Origin: Rhodovastum atsumiense | Lineage (GTDB): Bacteria > Pseudomonadota > Alphaproteobacteria > Acetobacterales > Acetobacteraceae | Length of the DNA stretch: 60,772 bases | Direction of reading: 5' to 3' | NCBI RefSeq assembly: GCF_937425535.1 | Contig: NZ_OW485607.1 | Location: forward strand, 1-60,772 | In this document: piece after piece, positions 25,805-43,727 of the stretch | Layout: every line of letters starts with the position of its first letter | Position numbering within the stretch: the stretch's first letter is position 1 | Made by a program: the position numbers and the translations under genes | Notes under the pieces: generated by a model | Seen by the model: the letters and a program-made list of their open reading frames with translations, nothing else | Told to the model about the DNA's origin: nothing | Databases searched by the model: none

Positions 25805-26719
25805 TTATCGCGCGCTGACCAGTTTCGGCGCGACGGGCGGTTTCGACGGGTGCAACACCAGGCCGCCATCCTCGACTTCGACCTTGGCGTCTGGATAGAC
25901 GGCCAGGGCCAAGGCGAGGTTGGGAAGAAACCGGCGGCGGAAGATGTCCATGCGCCCCACCGAGGCGCCAAACTGGACCTTCAGGGCGGCCCAGGACACG
26001 GGGCGCGGGGCCGGCAGGACATGAAGGCGATAGGCCAGCCAGCAGTAGATGTCGATCGCCTGCGAGTTGTTCGACACCGCTTTGATGGCGGCGTCCTCAA
26101 GCGGCACGGGATGCTGCTGGAGCTGGCGGAAGAAGCCGTCCGACAGCGTCACGCTTTCGGCGAACAGGCCTTCCTGCGGTCCGGCGCCGACGAACATGGC
26201 CGTCTCGACGACGTTATGGCGCATGACGCCCGCGCGTTCTTTGGCACGCATGTGAAACGAGAAGGTGCAGAAGGTGATCCGCTCGGCCTGGTCGCGCACG
26301 GCGGCGATGTTCTTGCCGGCGCAAGGAATGCCCATCTTCCCGAACCATTGCCGCAGGCTGCGGCCGAGTTCCACGTTCCGGCTGCTGGTGCGCAAAGCTT
26401 CGGTCTGGAGATAGATCAGGATCAGGCGCGCGCGGCTGCCGTAGGGAACGCCGACGGGAATGGGCGTATCGCCCTCGCCCATTCGCATCCCCGGCTCGAC
26501 GATGAGGCCGACATGCTCGCCTTTGATTTGCCAGCCCTCGCCGTCGGGCAGCCGCTTGTGCGGCAAGGCGGCTTGGCACCAGCCGGAATAGAGGAGGCCA
26601 ATGCCGCCGTCCTCATTCGCCAGGTAGGAGGCGGCCGCCTCGATGACGTCCCGGCTCAGGCCGCCCGCGAGCGCGGCCTGCTTCCCGTGCGCCATCAGGA
26701 TGTCATGCACCTCGCCCAT
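25805..26719 (-). CDS. repA: RepA replication initiator (plasmid RPA family)
   Basis: The 304-residue protein has the typical RPA-type RepA content: MRMGEGDTPIPVGVPYGSRARLILIYLQTEA, then WFGKMGIPCAGKNIAAV, then the C-terminal IDIYCWLAYRLHVL and FRRRFLPNLALALAVYP. This family binds iterons and loads host replication proteins. Iterons lie on both sides of the gene, supporting the call. It is transcribed toward the winged-helix gene. Confidence 0.9.
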   Translation of the reverse strand: MGEVHDILMAHGKQAALAGGLSRDVIEAAASYLANEDGGIGLLYSGWCQAALPHKRLPDGEGWQIKGEHVGLIVEPGMRMGEGDTPIPVGVPYGSRARLILIYLQTEALRTSSRNVELGRSLRQWFGKMGIPCAGKNIAAVRDQAERITFCTFSFHMRAKERAGVMRHNVVETAMFVGAGPQEGLFAESVTLSDGFFRQLQQHPVPLEDAAIKAVSNNSQAIDIYCWLAYRLHVLPAPRPVSWAALKVQFGASVGRMDIFRRRFLPNLALALAVYPDAKVEVEDGGLVLHPSKPPVAPKLVSAR

Positions 26720-27134: not shown

Positions 27135-28007
27135 ATGAAGGCTCTGAAATGGATCGGCGGCTTGATGCTCTCTTTGATCATCCTTGGCAGCCTTCTGCCA
27201 AAAGGCCCGCCCCCAGCTTGGGATGCCTATGTCAAATATTCGGCCGAAGACGGGGTCAAAGATAGATTGCGCGATCCGGATTCAGCAGAGTTCAAAAATG
27301 TATTTGTTCGAAGTCTTGACGAGAATACACGAGCTGTCTGTGGACTTATAAACGCAAAAAACGGTTTTGGTGGACGTGTTGGTTTTACACCATTTTTGGT
27401 GATCTTTAAAAAATCAGGAGATCAAGCGCTAAGAAGTCCCGCTTTACTTGCTTCTGAAAGCATTGGTGGTGGGGTTTCCGCGGACGTTTCGGCAGGTGCA
27501 ATTCAGCTTGCCTGCTTTGGCAATCCTCAACCCCCGGCGGCGCCGCCAGCACCAGCGTCGAAGATTGAAGAAAAAGGCATCCCGAACACTGCGGCGCTCA
27601 ACAACACGCTTGAGCGACTTCGCGCCTTGCAGCGCCAGCAGCAGACCGAACGTGCCGCGCCTGCCCCTATGGGCAACGGAGACAACCCAAAGGGTTTGTC
27701 TGATCGGCTTTCGAGTAGCCAGCTCAGCGCTATCGGCGAACGCATACGGGAGTGCTGGAGCAAGGATGCTGGCGCACTCGATTTGGAGAAAATGCAGGCA
27801 AAGCTACTGGTGACGGTGGGCGCCGACGGTGTGGCCCGCGAGGCGATGATAGCCCCTGAGGACCGCGGACGCCTTAACGACCCGCGCTTTCGCGTTTTTG
27901 CCGAACGTGCTGTACGCGCTGCTCTTAACCCGCGGTGCGCGACCTTGCCTATACCGAAAGGTCTAATCGGCAGCGTTGGTATAGTGAGAGTAACATTCAG
28001 ACCATAA
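27135..28007 (+). CDS. exported protein with TolA-like C-terminal domain
   Basis: There is a hydrophobic N-terminus (WIGGLMLSLIILGSLLP), then a domain with VKDRLRDPDSAEFKNVFV and CGLINAKNGFGGRVGF, a pattern seen in several small exported proteins of phages and proteobacteria. A Gln/Pro-rich linker follows. The C-terminal 85 residues (IRECW, KLLVTVGADGVAREAMI, FAERAVRAAL) resemble the TolA/TonB-type periplasmic domain. It has 290 residues. Probably periplasmic or anchored in the inner membrane; role on the plasmid unknown. Confidence 0.6.
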   Translation: MKALKWIGGLMLSLIILGSLLPKGPPPAWDAYVKYSAEDGVKDRLRDPDSAEFKNVFVRSLDENTRAVCGLINAKNGFGGRVGFTPFLVIFKKSGDQALRSPALLASESIGGGVSADVSAGAIQLACFGNPQPPAAPPAPASKIEEKGIPNTAALNNTLERLRALQRQQQTERAAPAPMGNGDNPKGLSDRLSSSQLSAIGERIRECWSKDAGALDLEKMQAKLLVTVGADGVAREAMIAPEDRGRLNDPRFRVFAERAVRAALNPRCATLPIPKGLIGSVGIVRVTFRP

Positions 28008-28544: not shown

Positions 28545-28609
28545 ATTCTCCGTCCTGCATAGGTGTTAGCGATCTCCTTCCTACAACCCTTTTGGAAGGA
28601 GACAAATAC

Positions 28610-29386
28610 ATGGTTCAATTCCAAGATTGGTGTATTACCGCCGAGACGGTTATTGGCCATCACGCACTTCGCGTTCTCTCTGGCGACCCAGCGCGATTGG
28701 ATGTCGGCGTCACTACTACGGCAGCAATCATTCCCAGCCATTATGCTGCTGAAGAGCAAGTCTCCCGTATCCTAGCGCGTCTTGGCAAAATAAGAGCAGC
28801 CAAACTCATTGAAAATAAACTGCCAACCACGAAATCAATCCGATCCGGTGACCTGGGTGAAATTTTGGCAACAGAATACATCGCCAGCAACACGACTTAC
28901 TTGATTCCGATCAAGCGGCTGCGGTGGAAGGATCATCGGAATATGGCCATGCGCGGCGACGATGTTATCGGTATCGCGCAAGACCAGACAACAGGCCGCC
29001 TTCATTTTCTGAAGACGGAGGCTAAGAGCCGGGCCACCCTAAGCGCTGGCGTTGTCGCCGAGGCTCGCGCCGGCCTTGATAAGGACGGCGGTTTGCCATC
29101 AGCCCATGCGCTATCGTTCATCTCGGCGCGTCTTCTGGAGCTTGGCCATCTCGCGCTTGCCGATGCGATCGACGACGCGCAATTAAAACACGGCATACCC
29201 GTATATAGCGTAAAGCACTTGCTGTTTACGTTTTCCGGCAACGGGCCCACTACCCATCTCGCGGCGTCGCTTCAGGGTTACACGGGCCCGGTCGTGCAGT
29301 GGGCCGTGGGACTCCACGTGACGGACCATGCGGCCTTTGTCGGGAACGTCTACGACCAGGTGATCGCCAATGCCAACAACGATTGA
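28610..29386 (+). CDS. hamA: HamA-like nuclease (Hachiman locus 1)
   Basis: HamA/AbpA C-terminal (DUF1837) proteins are the nuclease half of Hachiman-type anti-phage systems. This 258-residue copy has SGDLGEILATEY near residue 80, MRGDDVIGI near 113 and the (D/E)xK element LKTEAKS near 134. GDD plus EAK would form the PD-(D/E)xK site. The ATG at 28610 has a strong GGAAGGAG site, better than the ATG at 28541 that overlaps the dead integrase. It overlaps the helicase gene by 17 bases. It is quite unlike the second copy at 40012. Confidence 0.8.
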   Translation: MVQFQDWCITAETVIGHHALRVLSGDPARLDVGVTTTAAIIPSHYAAEEQVSRILARLGKIRAAKLIENKLPTTKSIRSGDLGEILATEYIASNTTYLIPIKRLRWKDHRNMAMRGDDVIGIAQDQTTGRLHFLKTEAKSRATLSAGVVAEARAGLDKDGGLPSAHALSFISARLLELGHLALADAIDDAQLKHGIPVYSVKHLLFTFSGNGPTTHLAASLQGYTGPVVQWAVGLHVTDHAAFVGNVYDQVIANANND

Positions 29387-32300
29387 AGCCATTCAGGCCG
29401 AGATCGAAGCCGCGGCTACGCCGGGATTTCGCGGTCGCCTCATCGCACGCGGCCAAGCGAGGGCTATGATTTGGCGCGACGGGGCGCTTCCAGCGGATGC
29501 TCCCGCTTTCTCCCCCCAGCTTAGCTACGACCTCCACTCGTATGGTTATTCACTCCTTGGACTCGGTCTCCGCCTGCGTGACCTCGGGGGTGATCCCGCG
29601 CGCGCGCGCATTGCCTTTGAGCAAGCTGCTACTGCGCTTGAAGCGGTCATGGCCAAAGGCAATCGTGGCGACAGCGACCGCGACTTTCATTTCGTCATGG
29701 CCGCCGCCGCATACCATCTCGCGAGGCTTTCGGCGCGCGCCTATTCGCTACTCGTTATCGTGTTGGGAGAAAGCAATTTCTCGCCCATCGAACGTGCCAT
29801 CGCCCAGCTCATGCTTCGAGACTTCAATGCGCTTGATGACCTGGTCATGAGCTTTCGAGCCTATGGCACCGGCAGTGACGAGCGGATCACAGCAGCTTTC
29901 GAAGCCTATCTCAATCAGGACGAGCCTCAGGCTGCTGATGGTGCTGATTCAGAGCACTCGTCATTCATTTTGGATGGTATCGACCTTGCGTTGACAGACA
30001 ATTTCTTGGCGGCCATGTCGATCTTTCGGGCTGCTCTGGAGCATGGCGAGCAAGCTCTTGTCAACGAGGCGCTGACGCGTCTGCGGGAGGGTCAAAATAT
30101 TTGTGGAGAACTGAATCTTTTACCCCAATGGTGGGCGCACCGGGTTGCCATTCACCTTCTTTCCGACCTGTGGGATTCGACATTTCACGTTCGGCTTCCC
30201 GCCAACCCGTCGGGGGGATCTGCACCGTTGTGGCCATCTTTGCGAGAACTCTTCATTGCATCTCTCATGCGCCGTCCAAGGGCCGAAGTCGATCTGTGGC
30301 CTTCACAGATCGATGCTGCTGTGCGGGCGGTCAATCAGACTGATGACCTCGTGGTGTCGCTTCCTACCAGCGCCGGCAAGACGCGTATCGCTGAACTCTG
30401 TATTCTGCGATGCCTCGCTTCAGGCAAGCGGGTGGTCTTCATCACCCCTTTGCGGGCGCTCTCGGCTCAGACCGAGACAGCCTTGCAGCGGACATTCTTT
30501 CCTTTAGGCAGAACGATCTCGGCCCTTTACGGTAGCGTCGGTGTCAGCGGCCTCGACGAAGATGCCATTCGCGAGCGGCATATCGTGGTTGCAACACCCG
30601 AGAAGATCGATTTCGCATTGCGCAACGACCCCAGCCTGCTCGACGACGTAGGATTGCTAGTGTTCGACGAAGGCCATATGATCGGGCCCGGCGAGCGCGA
30701 GGTTCGCTACGAGGTCCAGATTCAGCGGCTGTTGAAGCGATCGGACGCGTCTCAGCGGCGCATCGTCTGCCTTTCGGCGATTCTTCCAGACGGTGATCAG
30801 CTAGAGGATTTCGCCAACTGGCTGCGCCGAGACCAGCCAGGGGGCCTCGTTAAGAACGATTGGCGGCCAACGCGGCTCCGGTATGGAGAGGTCACTTGGA
30901 ACGGCCAGACCGCGTTGCTCAGCTTGCGGGTCGGCGAAGAACGTCCTTTCGTACCACGCTTCCTGACAGCGTTTACGCCACCTTTGTTTATTCGCCCCAA
31001 GCGGCAGCGAACGCGAGTCTTTCCTGACGATCAGCGTGAGCTTTGCTTGGCCACAGCGTGGCGCCTTGTTGAGGACGGCCAGACTATCCTGATTTTTTGT
31101 CCGGAGCGACGCAGCGTTGAACCCTTCGCCGAGGTAATCATCGACCTCCATGAGCGCGGTGCGCTCAAGTCGTTGCTCACTATCGAGCCGTCCAAACTCG
31201 CTACCGCATTGGCCCTCGGGCAAGAGTGGCTCGGCCAGGGTCATGCGATCCTCAGGTGCCTTGAACTCGGGGTTGCATTGCATCACGGGGCTTTGCCGAC
31301 CGCCTATCGCAAGGAGGTCGAGCGTCTTCTGCGCGAAGGCGTGCTCAAGGTCACGATTTCATCGCCGACCTTAGCTCAAGGCCTCAATCTGTCGGCGACC
31401 GTCGTCATAATGCATTCTCTGTTCCGCCGCGGTGAGCTCATCGAGATATCGGAGTTTAAGAACGTCATTGGCCGCGCTGGCCGAGCCTACATCGATGTCG
31501 AGGGACTGGTTCTCTACCCAGTTTTTGATGGCGATCCATACCACCTCTCCCAATGGGATCGGCTCATCACCAACCTTGGCTCGCGTGAGATGGAAAGTGG
31601 TTTAGTACGTCTGGTGCTGGAGCTGTTGGTCCGCATGCACAACAGGACTGGTGGCACTTTGCAGCAGCTTGCCGACTACGTCGTGAACAACCCCGCTGCT
31701 TGGACATTTCCCGAGATACCAAACGAGAAGCCGCAGATTCGCGAACACGCATTTTTATCGTGGCAACGGAACCTAGCCACCCTAGACACAGCGATTCTGA
31801 GCCTGATCGGGGAAAATGATATCCCTGATCACAGCGTTGAGGAGACCTTGGACCGCATCCTCCAGTCATCTCTTTGGGAACGTAGCCTCAAGCGCCGGCC
31901 CCAAGACCACCAGCTGGTGCTGAAGACCGCATTCGTTGCCCGCAGCAAGGTCATATGGGCGCAGTCGACATCCGTTCGCCGACGCGGCTATTTTCTTGCT
32001 GGCATTGGCCTTGAGAGCGGTCTCGCTCTCGACGCCATTGCTGCAGAATGCAACGAGCTTCTCGTGACCGCCAATAATGCCATCTTCGCCTTTGAAGCTG
32101 AGGATGCGATTGCCGCAATTACCAGTATAGCCGAGCGCGTGTTCAGCTTCTATCCCTTTGCGCCTGATCCTATGCCACCCAATTGGCGGGCGATCTTGCG
32201 CTGCTGGTTGCTTGGTGAGCCGCTCGCAGCCGTCGCCGCTGACCAGGAATCTGACACGCTCCAATTCGTCGAGGGCGGATTGGTATATCGGCTGCCATGG

Positions 32301-32909
32301 GCGATGGAAGCGATCCGGGTGCGTGGAATCGCAAACGGCGATATTATCGACGATACATTCGGCCTGCGCCTTGAGGATTACGATCTGCGTTTTGCCGTTT
32401 GCGCCGTGGAGACCGGCACTCTCAATCGTTCAGCTTCAATATTGATTCAAGCAGGATTCAATTCCCGCATCGCGGCAATCAAAGTTGTTAATGATACCGG
32501 CGCCACCTTTTCTACCGCGGCCGAGCTTAACCAGTGGTTAGGTTCGGAAGTTGTGGCGGCTTGGAGTGCGTTGCCTGATTGGCCGACGCCTGAAACGCAG
32601 GTGATGTGGGCGACCTTCAGCCGGGATTTTGTGCCTCATGAAGGCAACACCTGGACTAGTCGACGCTATTGGGCTTCGGTGGCGTGGAATTCTAGCACCG
32701 CGCCGCGCTCAGGCACACCTGTCCGTCTATTTCACCTGGATGGCCGGCCTGCGGTGCTGTCTGTCGACGGTCTGCCTATCGGCACGCTGAAAGCGCCGTT
32801 GAACCCCAATCGGCGTGGCCTCCTGCGGGGAGTGGTCGGAGATGAAGCCGGAAAAATCCTGCTGACGTACCTCGGTCCTGAAGATCTCTGGCTAAAGAAT
32901 ATAGCTTAG
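29370..32909 (+). CDS. hamB: HamB-like helicase, 1,179 residues (Hachiman locus 1)
   Basis: Superfamily 2 helicase partner of HamA. A helical N-terminal region of about 300 residues precedes Walker A LPTSAGKTR near 328, the DEGH box near 431, a motif SPTLAQGLNLSATVV, and motif VI NVIGRAGRAY near 705, as in Ski2-like helicases. About 450 further residues follow. At 1,179 residues it is far longer than the second HamB at 40871 (708 residues). In studied Hachiman systems the helicase senses abnormal DNA and controls the nuclease. Overlap with hamA supports an obligate pair. Confidence 0.82.
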   Translation: MPTTIEAIQAEIEAAATPGFRGRLIARGQARAMIWRDGALPADAPAFSPQLSYDLHSYGYSLLGLGLRLRDLGGDPARARIAFEQAATALEAVMAKGNRGDSDRDFHFVMAAAAYHLARLSARAYSLLVIVLGESNFSPIERAIAQLMLRDFNALDDLVMSFRAYGTGSDERITAAFEAYLNQDEPQAADGADSEHSSFILDGIDLALTDNFLAAMSIFRAALEHGEQALVNEALTRLREGQNICGELNLLPQWWAHRVAIHLLSDLWDSTFHVRLPANPSGGSAPLWPSLRELFIASLMRRPRAEVDLWPSQIDAAVRAVNQTDDLVVSLPTSAGKTRIAELCILRCLASGKRVVFITPLRALSAQTETALQRTFFPLGRTISALYGSVGVSGLDEDAIRERHIVVATPEKIDFALRNDPSLLDDVGLLVFDEGHMIGPGEREVRYEVQIQRLLKRSDASQRRIVCLSAILPDGDQLEDFANWLRRDQPGGLVKNDWRPTRLRYGEVTWNGQTALLSLRVGEERPFVPRFLTAFTPPLFIRPKRQRTRVFPDDQRELCLATAWRLVEDGQTILIFCPERRSVEPFAEVIIDLHERGALKSLLTIEPSKLATALALGQEWLGQGHAILRCLELGVALHHGALPTAYRKEVERLLREGVLKVTISSPTLAQGLNLSATVVIMHSLFRRGELIEISEFKNVIGRAGRAYIDVEGLVLYPVFDGDPYHLSQWDRLITNLGSREMESGLVRLVLELLVRMHNRTGGTLQQLADYVVNNPAAWTFPEIPNEKPQIREHAFLSWQRNLATLDTAILSLIGENDIPDHSVEETLDRILQSSLWERSLKRRPQDHQLVLKTAFVARSKVIWAQSTSVRRRGYFLAGIGLESGLALDAIAAECNELLVTANNAIFAFEAEDAIAAITSIAERVFSFYPFAPDPMPPNWRAILRCWLLGEPLAAVAADQESDTLQFVEGGLVYRLPWAMEAIRVRGIANGDIIDDTFGLRLEDYDLRFAVCAVETGTLNRSASILIQAGFNSRIAAIKVVNDTGATFSTAAELNQWLGSEVVAAWSALPDWPTPETQVMWATFSRDFVPHEGNTWTSRRYWASVAWNSSTAPRSGTPVRLFHLDGRPAVLSVDGLPIGTLKAPLNPNRRGLLRGVVGDEAGKILLTYLGPEDLWLKNIA

Positions 32910-33119
32910 CTACTTGGGGTCGCGACCCAAAGCCGGACTGCGAGGCAGATGTTAGGCTGTGTCGGTATAGTTTCAGCACCCTTCGCCGATTTGCTGCTGC
33001 GACTGACCGTCAGTGCAGCATCGACGCTTGTGGTGTTCCTTGCTGAAACTCACAACAATATGCAGATTTTCCGCCGTCTCGTGGATCGCAGCCATCAAGC
33101 GGCTGCGGTAGCGCTTATA
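32910..33119. other. gap between hamB locus 1 and IS630
   Basis: No gene is evident. A 12-base palindrome, GGGTCGCGACCC, at 32917-32928 directly after the hamB stop may act as a weak terminator. Further on AGTTTCAGCA and its inverse TGCTGAAACT lie about 70 bases apart, possibly an old element end. Confidence 0.35.
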
Positions 33120-34282
33120 CCAATGCCCACGGGTCAGAACCGATGTGCCCAGTCGCGTAGTCCGATGGACATGATCCGCCAAGGCTGATCCATGAGCCTG
33201 TTCCACGCGTCGCAGCAGTGTTCGACGATAGCCTCGTAGGAGCGGAACACTAGGTTCGAGAGCCAGTTGTCACGTAGGAATTGCCATATATTCTCGGTGG
33301 GGTTGAGCTCAGGGCATTTCGGCGGCAGCGGCACCAAGGTGATGTTGGACGGCACCACGAGGCGCGCTGAGGTATGCCATCCCGCCTGATCGAGCAGCAG
33401 CACGGCATGTGCACCAGGCGCCACGGCGGCGGCGATCTCGACCAGATGCAGATTCATCGCATCGAGATTGCATCGGGGCAGAACCAGCGCTGCCCCCTTG
33501 CCCTCCCGAGGGCAGATGGCGCCGAAGATGTAGGTGGACGCCGTGCGCTGGTCCTGGGGTGCAGAGGGTCGAGTACCCCGTCGGGCCCAGCGGCGGGTGA
33601 GCTTGTTTTTCTGGCCAACCCGGGCTTCGTCAGCAAACCAGACCTCTATTCGCTCAGGGGCGATACCCGTCTCGGCGGCGATTTCCTCCAGACGGGCCGG
33701 GAAACTTTTTTAAAATGTTCGATTGCTCCTTCGGCCTGGGCATGATGGCGCGGCCGAACCGACAGCTTGCGAAAGCCCATCGCCCGCAATTCCCGGCTTA
33801 TCGTTTGCCGCGACACCGATATCTGGAATTCTTCCCACACCCACTGACACAGATCGATTTGCCGCCAGCGCACCACACCGTGCACCGCCGGGATCGGCCC
33901 GCTATCGATGACCGCCGCCAATGCCGCACGCTGCTCGGCAGTCAGCAGAGGCGCTGGCCCCGGCCGCTTGGGATCGATCAGCCCCGCCGGACCAGCCGCG
34001 TTGAACTTCACCACCCAGTCCCGAACGATCTGCGGCGTCACCCCGCCGATCTTCGCCGCCTCCGTTCGGCTCGACCCCTCGTAGATCGCCGCCAGTGCCA
34101 ACAGACGTCGGGCTTGTCCCCCGTCCTTCGCGGCCCGGGCCGCCGCACGGACCAACATCGCGTCAAAATCACCTCGCAAGAGCAGGGGGCGTGTCATGGC
34201 GAACCTCCTTCGTTCGCCATCTTGAATCCGATCTCACCCGCGTCGGGCAACCCCCAAACGAGTTGTCATCCACGGGCATTGG
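33120..34282. mobile_element. IS630-family insertion sequence
   Basis: The element begins CCAATGCCC and ends GGGCATTGG and is flanked by TA on both sides, the target duplicated by this family. It carries one transposase in two overlapping frames. Its right end is also found as a 58-base relic at 53480-53537, and its end sequences recur in the small element at 54962-55055. Confidence 0.85.
33134..34197 (-). CDS. IS630 transposase made by -1 frameshift
   Basis: The first frame (34197 down to about 33707) encodes the helix-turn-helix N-terminal part ending EGAIEHFKK. At the A6 run (TTTTAAAAAAG) the reading frame must slip back one base to continue as FPARLEEIAAETGIAPERIE, then WFADEARVGQKNK, LLLDQAGWH and PELNPTENIW, which hold the DDE catalytic residues. 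Many IS630 elements use just such programmed frameshifting. The two parts together give a full-length, otherwise intact transposase. Confidence 0.8.
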
Positions 34283-34284
34283 TA

Positions 34285-34923
34285 TTAGCCATGGCCTTTC
34301 GTCCCGGTCTGGTCGTCTCCCGGCGCGCGCGCGAACGCCAGCAGCGGGCCAATGTCGTGGGCATCCGCTTGCCGCAGGGCGTCGATGTAGCGCCGCCGCA
34401 GGTCACCGGCGCTCGCCAGCGTGCCCCGCCCCCACGGGAAGCGCGGCTGGCCGAGTTGCATCGCGAGAAGGTCGGCCATCAGGCGCGCATGGCGGCCGTT
34501 GCCGTTAGGGAATGGGTGGATCGCGACCAGCCGGTGATGCAGACGCACCGCGATTTCGTCCGGCGGGAAGACCTGCGCCGCCACCCAGAGCCTGGCGTCG
34601 TCGAGCAACTGGCGCAGCTCCACGGGAATCTTCCAGGGGTCTATGCCGATGTTGCGCGTCGTGGTGCGGAACTTTCCCGCCCAACGCCAGACGTCGCCGA
34701 ACATGTGCCGGTGTAAACTGCGCGCGAAATCCTCGCAGAGGAGGTCACGCCGCAACTGGCGCAGCCCCCATTCCTGCCCGGCGAGGATGTTCGCCTGTTC
34801 CGCCGCGTTCAGCTCGCGGCGTAGGGCGATGTGCGAGGGAATGAGGCCGTCCCGTTCCGTGTCGGCGAGCGGCGTGGCCGCATCATCCGGCTCCTCGAAA
34901 AGCCCGCTCACCGGTCGTCCCAC
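34285..34923 (-). CDS. mobile mystery protein B (Fic domain)
   Basis: Fic enzymes attach AMP or another nucleotide part to target proteins. The 212 residues carry the Fic motif HPFPNGNGRHAR at 136-147, with Asn in place of the usual Asp/Glu, as is normal for the mobile mystery B family. MFGDVWRWAGKFR near 74 is the other family block. It overlaps mobile mystery protein A by 16 bases. The IS630 element lies 2 bases after its stop, so the tail may have been altered. The pair likely acts as a toxin-antitoxin-like or regulatory unit. Confidence 0.85.
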   Translation of the reverse strand: MGRPVSGLFEEPDDAATPLADTERDGLIPSHIALRRELNAAEQANILAGQEWGLRQLRRDLLCEDFARSLHRHMFGDVWRWAGKFRTTTRNIGIDPWKIPVELRQLLDDARLWVAAQVFPPDEIAVRLHHRLVAIHPFPNGNGRHARLMADLLAMQLGQPRFPWGRGTLASAGDLRRRYIDALRQADAHDIGPLLAFARAPGDDQTGTKGHG

Positions 34924-35369
34924 AGCGTGCGCGGATCGATCGCGCGCGCGAAGGCCTCGTTTTGCGCCTCGGCATCCCGCGCGGCCAATTCCTGCCGCTC
35001 CAGCAGCATCGTATGGGCGACCGCCGGCAGGCGACGCCGCGCCACCGCCCGCGCGCGATCCTGCACCATGGTTTCCAGCGGCTTGTTGGGCACGAGCGCG
35101 TAGACAAGCTTGCAGTCGAAGGCCGCCGCGACCCTTTGCAGCGAGCGCAGCTGCACTGTGCCCTTGATCTCGGATTGTTCCATGGCGGCCAGCGCCGGCT
35201 GGCTGACCTTGAGGCGGCGGGCGAGTTGCAACGAGGACATGCCGAGCGCCTCCCGGATGGCCCGAATCCAGCCCTTGACCGGGGGCGTGAAACGGACGGC
35301 GGGGCCGAATTCAGTAAATCTGCGGTCCAAGGCCCGGCGTGCCTCGTGCTTGTGAATGAAGGATTTCAT
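34908..35369 (-). CDS. mobile mystery protein A (HTH)
   Basis: The 153-residue protein has an XRE-type helix-turn-helix (MSSLQLARRLKVSQPALAAMEQSE) around residues 43-68. It then has LQRVAAAFDCKLVYALVP, the standard plan of mobile mystery protein A. It is always found next to mobile mystery protein B and probably represses the pair. An AT-rich promoter region lies between it and the divergent nuclease-like gene at 35592. Confidence 0.85.
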   Translation of the reverse strand: MKSFIHKHEARRALDRRFTEFGPAVRFTPPVKGWIRAIREALGMSSLQLARRLKVSQPALAAMEQSEIKGTVQLRSLQRVAAAFDCKLVYALVPNKPLETMVQDRARAVARRRLPAVAHTMLLERQELAARDAEAQNEAFARAIDPRTLWDDR

Positions 35370-35591
35370 AATCCGCAGCCTATAATTTTATAGCAGATAT
35401 ATAAACCATAGGCTGTATTTTATCGAATGTCAAACAAATTGCGATTTATACGTTCTCTGGAATGAAAAAGACGCGTGCAAGACTTTGCCGCACGGGCACA
35501 GGCGCCCGATCCAGGCGCTGAAGCCCCTATTGTGAAGGCCCTCGCTTTCGCGGATAATTCCAAAAGAAAAACGAAAGACGGCACCGAGACG

Positions 35592-36491
35592 ATGCGTTCC
35601 CTATGGCGACTGCACATCCGCCCGAACGGCGGACATGGCAACATTGCCGCTTCCGTCGGGCTCTGCCTGGAGCGCTCGATCATCGGCATGGGATGGGCGG
35701 CGCCGAATGAGGCCGTGACGCGGTCGGCCGATCTTGAGTGGTACAAGGCGGCCGCTGCCCGGCAGTACCCGGACAGCACCGCTTGGCATTCGGTCTGGAC
35801 GTTCGCGGCGGATCCGCAATTAGGCGACCTGGTATGGTTCCGAGACCTTGAAGGCCACTTCTTCCTCGCCGAGATCACCGGCCCCTGGCAATACGCCTAC
35901 GAGGACGACGAGGCGATCGGCGCCGACATCGTTAACTTCCGGCCGGCGCGTATCATCCCAGTCGGGCTGGCCGATGCCGTGCCCGGCAAGATCATCGCCT
36001 GCTTCCGCCCGCCGATAACCTTTATGCCCATTCGCTCACCGGGCATGCTTGCCTTCTCGGAGCAGCTGGCCGGTCTGCCGGTGAGTGGCGATGCGGGGCG
36101 TGACGTTTTCGAGTTCATGTCCGATGCCGACCTCGAAAACTTGGTCTTTGTTTATCTGCAGTTTCTCGGCTGGTACGTGCTGCCCGGCACCCGCACGGCC
36201 ACCACGGCCCATTATGAGTTCGTGCTGGTCAACCGCGAAAGCGGCGAACGGGCCGTCGTGCAGGTCAAGTCCGGGCATACGTGGATCGACGCTGCCCGCT
36301 ATGCCGGCGCGGAAAAGGCTTTTCTCTTTGCCGCCTGCGACCACTACGGCACGAACCCGCCGCCGAACGTGGTCATCATCACCCGGCCAGAGCTGGAGGA
36401 CTTCATGCTGAGCCAGCCCCATCTGCTGCCGCGCGCCGTGAGCCACTGGATGGCCATTGCCGGTCTCGCGCCAGTGGGAGGGACGCCATAG
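35592..36491 (+). CDS. probable restriction-type nuclease with N-terminal reader-like domain
   Basis: The 299-residue protein has two parts. Residues 1-150 (WRLHIRPNGG, GMGWAAPNE, GDLVWFRDLEGHFFLAEITGPWQY, RPARIIPVG) resemble PUA/EVE-like domains that read modified bases. Residues 180-280 (DLENLVFVYLQFLGWYVLPGT, HYEFVLVN, AVVQVKSG) match an Mrr-like PD-(D/E)xK nuclease, where QxK replaces (D/E)xK. It may cut modified DNA. The start at the ATG at 35592 is preferred over an upstream GTG at 35475. It is followed by another probable nuclease gene. Confidence 0.6.
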   Translation: MRSLWRLHIRPNGGHGNIAASVGLCLERSIIGMGWAAPNEAVTRSADLEWYKAAAARQYPDSTAWHSVWTFAADPQLGDLVWFRDLEGHFFLAEITGPWQYAYEDDEAIGADIVNFRPARIIPVGLADAVPGKIIACFRPPITFMPIRSPGMLAFSEQLAGLPVSGDAGRDVFEFMSDADLENLVFVYLQFLGWYVLPGTRTATTAHYEFVLVNRESGERAVVQVKSGHTWIDAARYAGAEKAFLFAACDHYGTNPPPNVVIITRPELEDFMLSQPHLLPRAVSHWMAIAGLAPVGGTP

Positions 36492-36656
36492 AACGGGCAG
36501 AACAGTACGGTTCACGGCCCGCATCTGCACCGTCGCCGAAGCGAGCGACTTCACAAGGCGTTCCGACCGTCGATCGGCCGAGCCATCCGCTCATCCTCCA
36601 TCTTGCGCAGGCAAATGTATAGGGCTCCGATCGAGATCGGAACGAATGTAGGTGAC

Positions 36657-37667
36657 ATGCAGAAAGCGCCCACCAAAACGTCCCGCAAGACGACCACGAC
36701 ACTTCCCAAGGTGATCTTCTTCCACATCGGCTGGACCCGGGAATATCGCGGAGCCAAGGACGATCCCCCGCTCGGAAAATTTGGCTTCATCGGCGAGTGG
36801 CACGAGGCCCTGAACTTCCGCCCATACCGTGGGCGCTGCTACGGCTATGCGCCGCACTCCAGCGTCAGGGTAGGCGAACTAGGGGCGGCCCGCGGAGCGG
36901 ACTATGCGGATGGGGTTCTGGTGATCTGGACAGCAACGGATCCGGCGGGTGGCGGCCGCTACATCGTGGGATGGTACCGAAACGCAACCGTTCATAGGCA
37001 ACTCGATGACAGGCGCCCTAGCGGGGCCATGACGCTGGCGATCGCCGACGCCGCAGCGGACGACTGTTATCTCGTCCCAGTCGACGAACGACGCTTCTTC
37101 GTCCCTAGCTTGCAAGATGGATGGCCTGGACAGAAGAGTGCGTTCTACGCCAACAAGCACCTCTCGGATTCAGACCTGAAAAAGGTGATCGCTTACATAG
37201 ATGGTCAGTCGTCTAACGGGTTCTTTCGTGAGGAGCCCGCGCAGGCCGACAAGAAGAAGAGACACGGCGGAGGCCGCAGCCAGGATCCAGAGACACGGGC
37301 GCGCGTGGAAAGAGCCGCGGTCGATCTAGTGACGACACAATACGAGCATGATGACTGGGACGTTGAGTCCGTGGAGTCGGACAACAAGGGCTGGGACCTA
37401 GAAGTGACCCGGGCCGGGATGCTGCTCCGCGTCGAGGTCAAGGGACTTTCCGGCGAAGGCGCCGTCGAGCTGACCCCTAATGAGTACGAGGCCATGAGGT
37501 CGAAAGACAAGCGCATGAGCTATAGGCTCGCGATCGTCTGGAACGCGCTATCGCGGGCGCCGACTCTTACCATATTTTCCTACGAGCCGGGAACGGAAGC
37601 ATGGCGCTCCGATGACGGCAGAAAGCTCCACTTCAAGGACCTCATCGGCGCGCGGGTTAAATTCTAG
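36657..37667 (+). CDS. DUF3883 (NO VEIN) domain protein with N-terminal sensor domain
   Basis: The 336-residue protein begins at an ATG with AGGTG just upstream. The N-terminal 130 residues (VIFFHIGWTREYRG, RCYGYAPHS, GGRYIVGWYRNATVHR) look like a recognition domain. The C-terminal 110 (DPETRARVERAAVDLV, DNKGWDLEVTR, LRVEVKGLSG) is the DUF3883 domain, with D and ExK arranged as in PD-(D/E)xK nucleases near residues 243-260. DUF3883 is frequent in defence islands. It probably works with the gene at 35592. Confidence 0.65.
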   Translation: MQKAPTKTSRKTTTTLPKVIFFHIGWTREYRGAKDDPPLGKFGFIGEWHEALNFRPYRGRCYGYAPHSSVRVGELGAARGADYADGVLVIWTATDPAGGGRYIVGWYRNATVHRQLDDRRPSGAMTLAIADAAADDCYLVPVDERRFFVPSLQDGWPGQKSAFYANKHLSDSDLKKVIAYIDGQSSNGFFREEPAQADKKKRHGGGRSQDPETRARVERAAVDLVTTQYEHDDWDVESVESDNKGWDLEVTRAGMLLRVEVKGLSGEGAVELTPNEYEAMRSKDKRMSYRLAIVWNALSRAPTLTIFSYEPGTEAWRSDDGRKLHFKDLIGARVKF

Positions 37668-37857: not shown

Positions 37858-39253
37858 GAGCTATGCTGGAAATTGGGTGACGGCCCGATCAGGCGGCGGT
37901 CTGCACTGGGGCCTCGATGACCTCGAGGCCGTTGCGGAATCTGACACCTCGGACGACCTTCGGCAACTGGTTCTCACCCTTCAGGCGGCGCCATGTCTTG
38001 GCAGCCGTCATCACCAGTTTGAAAACCATGAGGCGGGCAGTGTCCTGCGAGAGCGCGCCCTTGGTCCGCACCGTGCGTAGGCGAACGGTGGCGAACACGC
38101 TTTCAATCGGGTTCGATGTGCGCAGATGATCCCAGTGCTCGGCTGGGAAGTCGTAGAAGGTCAGCAGCGCGTCACGGTCCTTGAGCAGGCAGGCAACGGC
38201 CTTGGCGTATTTCGCCGCATATTTCTCGGCGAACGTATCCACGGCGTCCTCGGCCGTGGCACGGTCAGGCGCCTGCCAGATCTCGCGCAGGTCATGCTTC
38301 ACCGCGGGCTGAACCGACTTGGGCAGCTTGTCGAGGATATTCGCGGTTTTATGCACCCAGCAGCGCTGATGCCGGGTGGTCGGGAACACCTCCCCCAGTG
38401 CTTTCCAGAAGCCGAGACTTCCATCTCCGGTGGCCAGCCGCGGCGCGACCGCCAGCCCGCGGGCCTTGAGGTCGACCAGCAGCTCGTGCCAGCTCTGTGC
38501 GCTCTCGCGCATCCCGACCTGAAAGCCCACGAGTTCCTTCTTGCCCTCCGGGGTGGCGCCGATCAGGACCAACATGCACTCGGCCTGCGGCTCCATGCGC
38601 GCCTGTAGATAGACGCCATCGGCCCAGCAATAGACGTAATGCCGGGCCGACAGATCACGGCGCTGCCAGCGGGTATAGTCGGACTGCCATTCGTCCCGCA
38701 GACGGCCAATGACCGCAGGCGACAGGTTCGGCGCCTCCGGGCCGAGCAGCGCCGTCAGCGCCTCCTGGAAATCGCCCATCGAGACCCCACGCAGGTAGAG
38801 GATCGGCAATAGCGCGTCCAGGCTGCGCGTCCGCCGCGCCCAGCGCGGCAGCAGCGCCGAGGTAAAACGGATCCGCTCCGCTTCCGACGCGGCGCCGCGA
38901 TCGCGCAGCTTCACCCGCCGCACCGGAACCGGCCCAATGCCAGTCTGCACCAGGCGTTCGGGCCCATACCCGTGTCGCACCAGCCGCTCACGCCCGTCCG
39001 GCAGCCGCAGACCACTCATTTCGGCCAGGAATGCCTCGGCTTCCGCTTCCACCGCCTGGGCCAGCAGACGCCGGGCGCCGCTCCTCAGCACCGCTGTCAG
39101 CGGGTCATCCACCTCATCGGGCTGACGGAGGGCAACAACCCTGGTATGGCTCGTCATGGCGTATCGCTCCTTCAGGAGGTTCTGGCAGGCTCGTCACCCG
39201 CCTCGATACGCCGCCTCACTCAGGCCGTCGTCACCCAGTTTCCCCCATAGCTC
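37858..39253. mobile_element. IS256-family element, copy 1
   Basis: The ends are GAGCTATG and CATAGCTC, extended as imperfect inverted repeats of about 28 bases. The 9-base sequence CCGGTGCCG is present on both sides (37849-37857 and 39254-39262), a perfect target duplication. It is inserted in a fragment of an IS1182-type transposase gene. Confidence 0.93.
37889..39157 (-). CDS. IS256 transposase, copy 1
   Basis: The 422-residue DDE transposase has WADGVYLQAR (first Asp), LATGDGSLGFWKAL (second Asp) and SNPIESVF (Glu). It is intact and nearly identical to copy 2 at 49589, with only a few substitutions. Confidence 0.95.
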   Translation of the reverse strand: MTSHTRVVALRQPDEVDDPLTAVLRSGARRLLAQAVEAEAEAFLAEMSGLRLPDGRERLVRHGYGPERLVQTGIGPVPVRRVKLRDRGAASEAERIRFTSALLPRWARRTRSLDALLPILYLRGVSMGDFQEALTALLGPEAPNLSPAVIGRLRDEWQSDYTRWQRRDLSARHYVYCWADGVYLQARMEPQAECMLVLIGATPEGKKELVGFQVGMRESAQSWHELLVDLKARGLAVAPRLATGDGSLGFWKALGEVFPTTRHQRCWVHKTANILDKLPKSVQPAVKHDLREIWQAPDRATAEDAVDTFAEKYAAKYAKAVACLLKDRDALLTFYDFPAEHWDHLRTSNPIESVFATVRLRTVRTKGALSQDTARLMVFKLVMTAAKTWRRLKGENQLPKVVRGVRFRNGLEVIEAPVQTAA

Positions 39254-39385
39254 CCGGTGCCGGGCGGCGGCTTCAAGCAATGCTACAACGCGCAGGCCGC
39301 TGTAGCGGCCGGTCCCTGCTGGTGGTGGCCAACAATGTAGTGCAGGCGACCAACGACAAGCAGCAGGTCGTGCCGATGCCGGACA
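39254..39385 (+). pseudogene. IS1182-family transposase fragment (split by IS256)
   Basis: Left of the IS, 37811-37857 reads ERLNLTEEESRLMPVP. Right of it the reading continues GGGFKQCYNAQAAV, then SLLVVANNVVQATNDKQQV. Together they match the middle of IS1182-type transposases. The beginning and end are missing and a short out-of-frame patch is present. The fragment is then joined to an IS66 piece. Confidence 0.7.
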
Positions 39386-39786
39386 AGGCGATGAACTATA
39401 TGCTGAAGCGCTGGGACACGTTCAGTCGGTTCCTCGACGACGGCCGGATCTGCCTGTCAAACAACGCCGTCGCGCGCGCCCTGCGCGGGATCGCTCTCGG
39501 TCGGAAAGCGTGGTTGTTCGCAGGATCAGATCGCGGCGACGAGCGGGCCGCGGCGATGTACTCCCTCCTCATCACGGTAAAGCTCAACGATATCTATCCG
39601 CAAGCCTGGCTCGCCGACGTGCTGGCGCGCATCGCTGATCATCCAGCTTCGCGCCTGCACGAACTGCTGCCCTGGAACTGGCGCAGGTTGAACCAGCATG
39701 GAGCCTACCGCCGCCTGATCGCAATCCGCGGCACTCAGCGGATGGATACACAGCGGGCGGCACACTGGCACTGTTCGTTAAGCTAG
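39386..39786 (+). pseudogene. IS66 TnpC C-terminal fragment
   Basis: MLKRWDTFSRFLDDGRICLS, NNAVARALRGIALGRKAWLF and YPQAWLADVLARIADHPASR are the C-terminal hallmark of IS66 TnpC. Nothing of the N-terminal two-thirds remains. It runs to 39786, where the frame ends in non-homologous sequence. Confidence 0.8.
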
Positions 39787-40011
39787 CGTGCCGCCAAGCG
39801 GCGTCAAACTCAGCGGCCGGGATGCCAGATTCGTGGACGATTACCTGCACCAGCGCCAGCAAGTCCGCGATCGTGTCATCGGTCATCATGGCGCCAGCCA
39901 TGCCACAAACCAAGCAATCCTGCTGAGCCGTCCGGCCTCGTGGGAGCCATTGATCAATCAATGATAGCGCGATTATGTTCTGACGCATCAACCTGTTGGC
40001 GACACCTGCGC

Positions 40012-40863
40012 ATGAATGCTCTTCGGCCGCAGCCTTTCCTCGAGGTCCGGGTAGAAGACACTGTCGGATTGCCGACCCTGCTAGGGCTATGCGCAGGTTA
40101 CGAGCTTGGGCAGTGGCGCTCGAGGCAATTTGCCAAGTACCTGATCCGGAATCTGATTGAATTTATCTACCCCATCGAGGAATGGGACGCTGCAAATTCT
40201 GCCACGGGTGTCGAAATGACTGCTCGGGCGGCGGAGGCAGTCTATAAGACGACGAAATACGAGAATCGTGGCGAAATCGGTGAACTAATCCTGTTTTCCA
40301 TCTTGCGATCGTACTATGGCTCGCTTCCGGTCGTGTCCAAGTTCTATTTCAAATCAGCCGTCAACGACACAGTGAAGGGTTTCGACGCTGTGCACTTTAT
40401 CAAAGGAAAAGACGGCCTAGAGCTTTGGCTCGGAGAGGTGAAGTTCTATACCGACGCTGCTGCTGCAATCCGCGACGTAATCGAGGAGCTCCATAAACAC
40501 CTAGAGGCAGATTATCTGCGCGGGGAGTTCACATGGATCGGTAATAAGATGCGAGGCGATGGGCCCCATTACCACGAGATCCGGCGCCTGTTTGACGACA
40601 AGACTTCGCTCGATCAAGTGTTCCCAGTGCTGCACATCCCGGTGCTGATTACCTACGAAAGCAAGGCTATCGGCACCCACGACATTGTCAACGATGTCTA
40701 CAGGGCTGCAATCGAGGCGGAACTGCGACACCACTTCGAATCGTTTAAGGGCCGTTGTGCCATCCAACGTGCCGCCGTCCACCTGATCCTTGTCCCTCTA
40801 GGCAGCAAACGAGCCTTGCAGGAAGACTTCGACAGTAGGCTCCGGGCCGCTCAGGATCTCTAG
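40012..40863 (+). CDS. hamA: HamA nuclease (Hachiman locus 2)
   Basis: A classical HamA: TTKYENRGEIGELILFSIL near residues 80-98, VKGFDAVHF near 122 and LWLGEVKFY near 140 form the DUF1837 PD-(D/E)xK core. The 283 residues start at the ATG at 40012 (a GTG at 39940 is also open). The downstream helicase starts 8 bases after its stop. It shares little visible sequence with the HamA-like protein at 28610 beyond the core motifs. Confidence 0.88.
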   Translation: MNALRPQPFLEVRVEDTVGLPTLLGLCAGYELGQWRSRQFAKYLIRNLIEFIYPIEEWDAANSATGVEMTARAAEAVYKTTKYENRGEIGELILFSILRSYYGSLPVVSKFYFKSAVNDTVKGFDAVHFIKGKDGLELWLGEVKFYTDAAAAIRDVIEELHKHLEADYLRGEFTWIGNKMRGDGPHYHEIRRLFDDKTSLDQVFPVLHIPVLITYESKAIGTHDIVNDVYRAAIEAELRHHFESFKGRCAIQRAAVHLILVPLGSKRALQEDFDSRLRAAQDL

Positions 40864-40870
40864 GAACCGG

Positions 40871-42997
40871 ATGATGAACCCCGACGAACTTCGCCGGATC
40901 CTCAGCGACCGAGCCCAGATCCGACGGGATCCGTTTAGGGTGGCGCGCATGGTTGCAGATATCTGCAACGCGGATCCAGACGCCATAATCGCCAGGGAGA
41001 TGGTGATTCGTGCTCTCGACCACTCGGACCTTTTCGAATCGCTGAATGGCTTGCTGGATGCGCTTGCCCGCCAAGTTGGTCTCTTTCCCTATGCGGTGCC
41101 TGAAAAGCTCGGCCTGCGCGACCAGCTTGCATGGGAAGCGCATCGGCCGCTCAACCTGCAACTTGACGGTAGCGACATCGTTTTTCACCGCGAACAGGCC
41201 GACGTTTATCGTGGCTTGATGGATGGACATAGCTACGTCCTCAGCGCACCGACGTCATTTGGGAAATCCCTGGTCATCGACGCGCTGATCGCGTCGGGCC
41301 GGTATCAAAATATCATTATTATTGTTCCGACCATTGCCCTAATCGACGAAACCCGCCGAAGGCTCGGCCGCTTTCGGGACAGATACAAGCTGGTAACTCA
41401 CCCCGACCAGGCACTTGCCGAGTGTAACATCCTGATTGTAACCCAAGAACGGGCAATTGACCGTGAAGACATCAAATCTATCGATTTGCTGGTGATCGAC
41501 GAGTTCTACAAGCTAGATCCAGCTTCGGAGGAGGAACGGGACCGCGCGTCGGCATTGAATCATGCCTTGTACAAACTGAGCCGGATCGCCAAGCAGATAT
41601 ACCTGCTCGGGCCAAACATCAGCGAAATTCCCCACGGTTTCGGTGCTCGGTTCAAATGCCAGTTTAAGCGCACAGACTTCAACACGGTAGTTTCCGAGGT
41701 CCGGCGCCTGGCTCCCACGCCGAACCGCGAGGAAGCTTTCGTCGAACTATGCCGCACTCTTGACGAGCCGACCCTGGTCTATTGCAAGTCGCCCAAGCAG
41801 GCGAACGATGTCATGCGCCTGCTGATCAAGCGACATGTCACGGATGAGATCCCTAAGTTGGAGCGTGCGGCGGAATGGGTTGGCCTCACCTATCACCCGG
41901 AATGGTCGCTGCGGGATGCCCTAAGGCTCGGTATCGGCATTCACCACGGACGCCTGCCGCGCTCCCTCGCTCAGCTAATGGTGGCCCTGTTCAATGACCG
42001 GCTCCTACGGTTCCTGGTCTGTACTTCCTCATTGATTGAAGGTGTAAATACCTCCGCGAAGAACGTCGTCATCTACGAGAGCAAGATCGGATCTCCTCCG
42101 CTCGACCACTTCACTTTCAAGAATATCCTGGGACGGGCAGGCCGCATGCGGCGCCATTTCATAGGCAATGTCTACACCTTCGATCCGCCCCCGGCAGAGG
42201 AATTGGATTTCGTCGATATCCCGGTGTTCACCCAAGGCGACGATACGCCCCTTGGATTGCTGGTTCAGGTCGAAGACAAGGACCTGCGCCCCGAAGCTAA
42301 TGAGCGCCTCACTGGGATACGTCAGCAGGATGTCCTGTCATTGGCGACGATCAGGCTAAATGCCCACATCAACCCCGAAGACCAAATTGCCTTGGCTAAG
42401 GAGCTGATGCAGCGCTTTCACACACTTCATCCTCCCATGTTCTGGACGGGACTTTACCCAACTTGGCCTCAGCTGCAGACGGCGTGCATGCTTATCTTTA
42501 ATTTCTTTATCAAAAGGCCGCGTCAGGGGGTATTTTCTGGATCACAACTTGCCTTTCGCCTAAACAAGTTGCGAGAGGCCGGATCGACTGCCGCCTTTAT
42601 CCGAGTGATCTTGTCTTCCGATCGAAATGTCGAAACGCCCGACGAGGCGGTGGAAACCGGTATGGAATTTACCCGCAATTGGGCAGGATTCACGTTCCCC
42701 AGGTATCTCATCGCACTCGACCGCATCCAGGCCGAGGTATTCAGGCGCCGTGGTCTAAGGCCGGGCAACTACGCCGCCTATGCTGCCGCGGTTGAGTCTC
42801 TCTTTATGCCACGCGAGATCCCAGAGCTAGAGGAATACGGCCTTCCCACCGAGATCGGCCGCAAAATCCAATCTCGGTTGGTAATCGGCCAGGGCCTCGA
42901 CGTAGCGTTGCTGTCGCTGAAGCGTGCTGACCTGAGCGGCATCCCTCTATCTCCTTTCGAGCGGGAGATGGTCGATCGTTGCCGTGCGGATCTGTGA
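40871..42997 (+). CDS. hamB: HamB helicase (Hachiman locus 2)
   Basis: Superfamily 2 helicase of 708 residues with Walker A SAPTSFGKSLV near 126, the DEFY box (VIDEFYKLD) near 209, CTSSLIEGVNTSAKNVV and motif VI NILGRAGRMRRH near 420. This matches the short HamB class. It should form the sensor half with HamA at 40012. The gene ends only 15 bases before an IS256 fragment, but the C-terminus looks natural. Confidence 0.9.
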   Translation: MMNPDELRRILSDRAQIRRDPFRVARMVADICNADPDAIIAREMVIRALDHSDLFESLNGLLDALARQVGLFPYAVPEKLGLRDQLAWEAHRPLNLQLDGSDIVFHREQADVYRGLMDGHSYVLSAPTSFGKSLVIDALIASGRYQNIIIIVPTIALIDETRRRLGRFRDRYKLVTHPDQALAECNILIVTQERAIDREDIKSIDLLVIDEFYKLDPASEEERDRASALNHALYKLSRIAKQIYLLGPNISEIPHGFGARFKCQFKRTDFNTVVSEVRRLAPTPNREEAFVELCRTLDEPTLVYCKSPKQANDVMRLLIKRHVTDEIPKLERAAEWVGLTYHPEWSLRDALRLGIGIHHGRLPRSLAQLMVALFNDRLLRFLVCTSSLIEGVNTSAKNVVIYESKIGSPPLDHFTFKNILGRAGRMRRHFIGNVYTFDPPPAEELDFVDIPVFTQGDDTPLGLLVQVEDKDLRPEANERLTGIRQQDVLSLATIRLNAHINPEDQIALAKELMQRFHTLHPPMFWTGLYPTWPQLQTACMLIFNFFIKRPRQGVFSGSQLAFRLNKLREAGSTAAFIRVILSSDRNVETPDEAVETGMEFTRNWAGFTFPRYLIALDRIQAEVFRRRGLRPGNYAAYAAAVESLFMPREIPELEEYGLPTEIGRKIQSRLVIGQGLDVALLSLKRADLSGIPLSPFEREMVDRCRADL

Positions 42998-43011
42998 CGA
43001 GCTCCTGAAGT

Positions 43012-43258
43012 CAAGCCGCGCATTTCCGCCAGGAACGCCTCGGCTTCCGCTTCCACCGCCTGCGCCAGCAGCCGCCGGGCGCCGTTCCTCAGCACCGCTG
43101 TCAGCGGGTCATCCACCTCATCGGGCTGACGGAGGGCAACAACTCTGGTATCGCTTGTCATGGCGTATCGCTCCTTCGGGAGGTTCTGGCAGGCTCGTCA
43201 CCCGCCTCGATACGCCGCCTCACTCAGGCCGTCGTCACCCAGTTTCCCCCATAGCTCC
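43012..43258. mobile_element. IS256 fragment (third copy)
   Basis: This holds the first 46 or so codons of the same IS256 transposase (minus strand, MTSDTRVVALRQPDEVDDPL) and the right inverted repeat ending CATAGCTC. The left three-quarters are missing. It probably records a recombination or deletion that placed hamB next to the relaxase region. Confidence 0.9.
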
Positions 43259-43469
43259 GAAACCCCCTCTCGCCCACCGTACAAGGGATTCTCGAAACCG
43301 CCTGCTACGCTCCGTAACGGCGGGCGATCCCCAGCTCTGCCCCATCGGGAATGGTCAAAGTCGAGACGGGCAGAATAGCACGGTTGGCGGAACGGACAGG
43401 GAACAACGACATCGACTGCCCCCGGTCAGACTCGATAACCAGTTGTTATCGCGTTTGCCTAGCTCTGCC
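43259..43469. other. short gap with no recognised gene
   Basis: Nothing convincing is seen here on either strand; several short GC-rich inverted repeats may be element remains. Confidence 0.3.
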
Positions 43470-43727
43470 CTAATTAGCGATAAAAGCTGGGACATCAGTG
43501 GGGTGCTGATCCTTCTCGGCGACCTCTAGCGCTCTGGTGAGGATCCGCAGGTGTGCCGGTCGAGATTGCGGATCCGTCGGGCGACGAAGATTTTGAGTGG
43601 TAGCAACGGCACCGCGTCCCGGGTGGAGGATCTCGCAGTTCTTCACCATATACGGAGACGCCGCATATCTCTCCTTGCCCACCTGACCTGAAATGGCCCC
43701 AAAGCCATTTTTGCTTTTCTCGTGCAT
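43470..43727 (-). CDS. possible hypothetical protein, 85 residues
   Basis: The frame from the ATG at 43727 begins MHEKSKNGFGAISGQVGKER and ends ALEVAEKDQHPTDVPAFIAN. Composition looks protein-like, and it lies directly after the 43747 gene on the same strand. There is no ribosome site of note and no family, so it could be a chance frame. Confidence 0.3.
   Translation of the reverse strand: MHEKSKNGFGAISGQVGKERYAASPYMVKNCEILHPGRGAVATTQNLRRPTDPQSRPAHLRILTRALEVAEKDQHPTDVPAFIAN

Follow-up and report, generated by a model that had tools for sequence, protein, structure and literature searches.

The mechanism of the anti-phage system Hachiman was worked out on the HamAB complex of Escherichia coli ECOR31 (PDB 8vx9, 8vxa, 8vxc, 8vxy). 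There, HamB surveys DNA, a 3' single-stranded end enters the helicase and leads to ATP hydrolysis, and a ratcheting of RecA2 and NAH, the helical bundle of HamB that binds HamA, activates HamA, with degradation of phage and host DNA (PMC12278908). Further parts of the same HamB are named WH*, CAH and OB, a conserved threonine lies at the DNA 3' end, and residues E138 and K140 of HamA are required for defense (PMC12278908). Among related systems, AbpAB of E. coli K-12 (PDB 8zue) has been recognised as similar to Hachiman (PMC12278908, PMC10732053) and is triggered by DNA damage (PMC10732053), while the protease-HamA Hachiman (HamMAB) has a trypsin-like domain fused to HamA and an MBL nuclease gene upstream (PMC12799240). 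Here, we analysed a hamA-hamB pair at 28610-32909 of a contig of Rhodovastum atsumiense (NZ_OW485607.1, assembly GCF_937425535.1; the whole 60,772 bases are called the window), which an initial annotation had described as divergent, very long and perhaps a separate subtype with another trigger. Judged by sequence comparison, phylogeny and fold prediction, it is very probably an intact copy of the long, ECOR31-type form of this anti-phage system.

Gene structure of the long pair

Both open reading frames (ORFs) were confirmed in the ORF set of the window where they had first been placed, adjacent and on the same strand. The first, hamA (28610-29386, + strand), encodes a PD-(D/E)XK nuclease (HamA/DUF1837) of 258 amino acids (aa) matched by Pfam, PADLOC and PDB chain 8vx9_A; the second, hamB (29370-32909, + strand), encodes, without internal stop, a Ski2/Hel308-like superfamily 2 (SF2) DNA helicase of 1,179 aa and of the long (ECOR31) type. 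The mechanical ORF of hamA opens at 28541, and the residue encoded at 28610 aligns with M1 of ECOR31 HamA. As read from the sequence, a Shine-Dalgarno (SD)-like AAGGAG (28596-28601, + strand) lies 8 nucleotides (nt) before the ATG at 28610, and the stop region of hamA overlaps the start of hamB by 17 nt (29370-29386, + strand), which likely brings about translational coupling of the two genes.

These features recur in other genomes. A scan of genome contigs gave 182 relatives among 236 pattern matches, and the best 80, mostly from draft genomes, were kept as the relatives referred to below. Of the 80 loci, 79 contain a HamA ORF, and the 17-nt overlap was seen in 56 of 79 related loci when mechanical ORF starts were used, as well as in the annotated genes of loci L003-L007 and L108. 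Moreover, 78 of 79 long-type relatives have a start codon that would give a HamA of 252-263 aa, with an SD-like four-base word at most 18 nt from the start in 63 of them, a figure that comes without a control count.

The Pfam scores of the pair, 39 bits for HamA (PF08878, cut-off 25), 85.5 for DEAD and 32.1 for Helicase_C, place the coding of both genes far beyond chance. PADLOC matched whole models, with 363.5 bits for HamA (PDLC00159) and 1774 bits over residues 1-1176 for HamB (PDLC00174); no feature distinguishing the pair from these families, labelled HamA1 and HamB1, was seen. Taken together, the pair is a Hachiman-type HamA nuclease with a HamB helicase, as first proposed, and its D-ExK, GKT and DEGH motifs are intact.

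Comparison with ECOR31 HamAB

A phmmer search of all PDB chains aligned residues 1-1173 of the window HamB with residues 1-1171 of ECOR31 HamB (8vx9_B) with 1636 bits, and the second-ranked sequence of the PDB reached 124 bits. Residues 1-257 of the 258 of HamA aligned with 1-258 of 8vx9_A at 247 bits, and the sole further PDB match up to E = 10 was 8vxy_A, a mutant of 8vx9_A. As a full-length stand-in for ECOR31 we used the pair of E. coli AR_0128 (L108), whose HamA differs from 8vx9_A at one of 258 compared residues and whose HamB shows no difference from 8vx9_B in the first 184 residues, the part compared letter by letter. Against this stand-in, BLASTP identity was 62.8% over 1,175 positions for HamB and 49.6% over 258 for HamA, and the PADLOC scores of L108 were nearly the same as those of the window pair (362.3 bits for HamA, 1775 bits for HamB). 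Lengths also agree, at 259 aa in ECOR31 and 258 aa in the window for HamA, and 1,174 aa and 1,179 aa for HamB; both systems consist of two genes, and the 17-nt overlap occurs in the near-identical L108.

The same domains follow one another from end to end, all on the + strand. With the borders of RecA1 (286-472) and RecA2 (500-731) taken from 8VXA (PMC12278908), residues 1-287 of the window HamB (29370-30230) correspond to the NAH helical bundle (56.1% identity to reference 1-285; helical in the model), followed by RecA1 (30231-30791; 82.4% identity) with GKT at 30375-30383 and DEGH at 30666-30677, RecA2 (30873-31565; 65.1%) with the GRAGR motif VI, and a C-terminal part of WH*, CAH and an OB-like barrel (31566-32906; 57.1% to reference 732-1174). 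Gap positions in this alignment number only 2 for the window protein and 7 for the reference.

The catalytic residues are likewise conserved. By alignment, the D-ExK residues of HamA are D118 (28961-28963), E137 (29018-29020) and K139 (29024-29026), all on the + strand, E137 and K139 being equivalent to ECOR31 E138 and K140, while HamB D433 is equivalent to ECOR31 D431. The D, E and K of HamA were kept in 79 of 79 relatives; for HamB, all 80 relatives have GKT, DEGH and the arginine pair of motif VI. Furthermore, the HamA interface loop 102-117 is identical to the ECOR31-type reference at 15 of its 16 positions.

The predicted fold agrees with these alignments. An AlphaFold2 model of the window HamB, built from 16 sequences, is helical in its N-terminal part and helical in its C-terminal part up to six strands at residues 1096-1169. 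In a Foldseek search against the PDB, ranks 1-3 were the HamB entries 8vxa, 8vx9 and 8vxy, with template modelling (TM) scores of 0.90-0.93 over 1,174-1,175 columns (0.92/0.93 over 1175 columns for 8vx9_B). The nearest folds other than HamB were Hel308, the pol theta helicase and Brr2, with a query TM-score of about 0.4 for Hel308 and pol theta helicases.

Length and apparent divergence of the helicase

The initial annotation had noted 300 extra N-terminal and about 450 extra C-terminal residues in HamB. Such ends do exist, with about 300 residues ahead of the helicase core (DEAD begins at residue 316) and about 470 behind it (end of Helicase_C at 706); they are extra, however, only when set against HamBs of the short type, for example the 708-aa protein of a second Hachiman pair in the same window (39940-42997). 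These residues are the NAH bundle and the WH*/CAH/OB parts of ECOR31 HamB. Since the characterised ECOR31 HamB has nearly the same length and the same parts, the 'very long' helicase is of the usual size and not a new variant. Indeed, the long form is uniform, with a HamB ORF of 1,150-1,215 aa in 73 of the 80 loci (median 1,172) and a shorter one in the other 7.

In turn, the marked difference from the classical form that had been claimed gave way, in the PDB search, BLASTP, domain identities and fold, to an end-to-end orthologue of ECOR31 HamAB. With the Pfam HamA model, the long-type HamA reaches a low score, 39 bits against 182 bits for the short-type HamA of the window, and the impression of divergence probably arose when the pair was set against short-type Hachiman. 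Across the 80 genomes with long HamB, PF08878 scores mostly lie at about 26-50 bits, and 2 genomes have no match at all. Consequently, an ordinary long-type Hachiman can look divergent when this model is used.

Phylogeny and classification

Trees were computed from 42 HamA and 42 HamB rows, namely the two pairs of the window and 40 loci from four sets: the genome loci above (14 of 80), viral contigs (3 of 4), E. coli and plasmids (10; L003-L008, L108-L111) and further genomes (13 of 15). From the last set, L113, for which no HamB ORF was found, and L125, with a HamB ORF of 548 aa, were omitted. The two trees agree, and both are deeply split, with long HamB (1,093-1,209 aa) on one side and short HamB (708-879 aa), together with AbpAB, on the other. 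The long pair of the window and L108 belong to one 13-row clade in each, with a support in the Shimodaira-Hasegawa-like approximate likelihood ratio test (SH-aLRT) of 100 for HamA and 99 for HamB. With helicase length considered on the phylogeny, the pair thus groups within a described type of HamAB, the outcome that the initial annotation itself had named as contradicting its proposal.

That proposal held the pair to be a separate Hachiman subtype, in which the additional N- and C-terminal parts would sense another trigger. It can draw on the length of HamB (1,179 aa, where the second HamB of the window has 708 aa), on the 39 bits of HamA with the Pfam model and on the depth of the split between long and short forms in both trees. 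Against it, the ECOR31 form lies on the long side, in the very clade of the window pair, and the additional parts are the NAH and WH*/CAH/OB domains of 8vx9. As a classification, the separate subtype is ruled out by the PDB search, the domain identities, both trees and the fold comparison; among the sequence, tree and model results obtained, none gave evidence for a trigger other than that of ECOR31, and we regard the proposal as a whole as highly improbable. Since the Hachiman mechanism was itself worked out on a long helicase of this form, neither a new subtype nor a new trigger is needed.

AbpAB was the other described system to be weighed, as a recognised Hachiman-like pair that also joins a nuclease with a Ski2-like helicase and whose AbpB core weakly matches that of the window HamB. 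This match is limited in BLASTP to two core pieces (88 residues at 29.5% and 192 residues at 24.5% identity), and the best E between HamA and AbpA is 0.067. AbpA carries a Cap4-like domain and an inactive HamA site (PMC12278908), whereas the window HamA has 258 aa, no second Pfam domain and an intact D-ExK. In addition, the AbpAB helicase has 729 aa and belongs to another clade, on the opposite side of both trees from the long pair. BLASTP, both trees and the Pfam and D-ExK results for HamA rule out membership in AbpAB, and even a closer kinship to it has next to no chance of being correct.

Membership in HamMAB was also considered and ruled out. Pfam found no trypsin-like domain of the HamMAB type on the window HamA, and at E 0.01 no Pfam family matched the next upstream ORF of more than 100 aa on the hamA strand (27135-28007). 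N-terminal fusions were suspected on two long-type HamA ORFs of greater length (434 aa in L057 and 408 aa in L038) and rejected, as Pfam found the HamA domain alone; the longer ORFs probably reflect upstream start codons of the open frame. Separately, L109, L122, L124 and L107 (HamB of 1,133-1,171 aa) are long HamAB that make up a sister group, with a clade of its own in both trees. The L109 pair is 38% (HamA) and 40% (HamB) identical to the window pair, and its HamB scores 1648 bits with PDLC00174.

Several observations weigh against the assignment to the ECOR31 type. Only 12 of 34 residues are identical to the reference in the HamA interface region 30-63, and 22 of 41 in region 159-199. In RecA2, Y521 and W525 of L108 are replaced by E523 and F527 in the window HamB, so that two RecA2-NAH contact residues are changed; in ECOR31, the RecA2 residues that move against NAH are printed as Tyr525 and Trp521 (PMC12278908). 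The host is not E. coli, and the confidence of the HamB model is moderate (mean predicted local distance difference test 78, predicted TM-score 0.75). Finally, the trees were quick ones, with SH-aLRT as sole support and without bootstrap, and several short-type rows as well as L123 have long branches, which leaves the branching order within the short side uncertain. Overall identity to ECOR31 is about 50% for HamA and about 63% for HamB, and the window pair differs from it further in its plasmid-like contig.

Despite these differences, the long pair is a real, intact and ordinary member of the long-type Hachiman, with nothing novel in the size of its helicase. Gene structure, end-to-end homology, catalytic residues, predicted fold and clade bear on the pair directly; that its proteins form a complex, sense DNA, are activated and clear DNA, as shown for ECOR31 HamAB (PMC12278908), would follow by analogy. 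HamA would be held inactive by the N-terminal helical domain of HamB, which, as a 3'-to-5' Ski2/Hel308-like DNA helicase, would survey DNA until a 3' single-stranded end within it releases HamA onto all DNA. Genome-integrity sensing is, by this analogy, the most likely function of the pair, and the copy is presumably expressed and active in its own host.

Distribution of the long form

The long form is widespread and already covered by full-length PADLOC models. On plasmids, 179 of 72,556 records matched HamB in tblastn, 54 of them at a coverage of at least 80%, and among 5,426 complete E. coli genomes a DNA search gave matches in 63, of which 25 reached a coverage of at least 80%. An IMG/VR scan for HamB gave 4 loci among 68 pattern matches, and HamA had no match in 50,697 phage records. 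Orthologues carry the RefSeq name 'Hachiman antiphage defense system protein HamA', and the label 'hachiman_type' appears in a PADLOC-style table of PMC11973324. Our literature search found no paper treating Hachiman, DUF1837, subtype and helicase together. In E. coli LR-27 (L003), RefSeq gives hamA (4365-4976) as incomplete, missing its N-terminus, and hamB as intact; this may perhaps be a decayed copy with a lone helicase.

In the class of the host, 29 of 385 genomes had some match to the HamB profile, only 4 of them above 700 bits (including the window's genome, and one partial). Across the phylum, PF08878 matches occur in 16 of 398 genomes, among which the window's genome is the sole one with two, and they occur in 3 of 40 close relatives, again counting this genome. 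None of 6 other genomes of the genus, some of them incomplete drafts, had a PF08878 match, and for this reason the genes probably came in horizontally.

Genomic context

The contig is one of nine in a 7.4-Mb genome. A RepA_C replication gene (25805-26719, - strand) and a MobA/TraA-type relaxase-helicase gene (44020-46854, - strand) indicate a plasmid or plasmid-like contig, for whose ends exact matching found no overlap. Directly after hamB lies an insertion sequence (IS) element (33113-34289) with 28-nt imperfect inverted ends (79%), which we take to be IS630-like. Its transposase is split over two ORFs on the - strand, one with DDE_3 (33134-33457) and one with a helix-turn-helix (HTH; 33646-34197).

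Such surroundings raise the question of a Hachiman relic, homologous yet inactive, for instance silent or decaying on the plasmid. IS elements surround the pair, the IS630-like one some 200 nt after hamB, and in the stretch from 28300 to hamA a scan with a single consensus gave no sigma-70-like promoter. The scan, however, gave a site count no higher than that of its shuffles, and both frames are open, with all catalytic residues, the gene overlap and the SD-like site intact. We consider a relic very unlikely and retain the reading of an intact long-type system.

Seven kb beyond the long pair stands the short-type Hachiman (39940-42997). Like the long pair, it combines a HamA nuclease with intact ExK and an SF2 helicase. 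HamA2 (39940-40863, + strand; 307 aa) has an intact GEVK, no second Pfam domain and 182 bits with the Pfam HamA model; HamB2 (40871-42997, + strand; 708 aa) is AbpB-like and scores 783 bits with PADLOC HamB2 (PDLC00201). Its nearest PDB helicase is AbpB (8zue_B, 329 bits), its nearest tree row L117 (56%), and its best full-length plasmid match reaches 39.6%, with one partial match of 49.7% over 55%. Compared with the long HamB, it shows 25% identity over only 183 aa, lacks the long N- and C-terminal parts and falls in the other clade.

What remains of interest is that both Hachiman architectures stand side by side on one small plasmid-like contig. A second HamA match above the Pfam cut-off occurred in 8 of the 80 long-HamB genomes, that of a ninth lying below it. 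Two matches shared a contig once, about 93 kb apart, and in none of the 80 did two matches lie within 20 kb of each other. Hence the 7-kb gap is unusual in this sample of mostly draft genomes. The two pairs, within 15 kb, might serve as complementary genome-integrity sensors for different DNA ends or thresholds, or might interfere through subunit exchange; we hold this to be unlikely, and if true, one plasmid would offer a natural test of why Hachiman has two architectures.

The short pair has mobile surroundings of its own. An IS256/Mutator transposase gene (37889-39157, - strand) lies beside it, and a 243-nt IS256 end is present in two copies (39012-39254 and 43016-43258) that form a direct repeat, 95% identical, on either side of the pair, an arrangement resembling a composite transposon. 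An IS66 transposase remnant lies within 39031-39786. A third ham gene was considered for the ORF at 42984-43529, downstream of the short pair, and rejected, as this ORF runs across one of the IS256 end copies; among the ORFs compared, its only other phmmer match was the ORF of the IS region at 39031-39786.

Between the two pairs, the predicted products of 34285-37667 are defence-like. They comprise a Fic-like protein with an HTH partner (the mobile mystery proteins A and B), a PADLOC candidate PDC-S02 protein (35475-36491) and a protein carrying a NO VEIN domain at its C-terminus (36603-37667).

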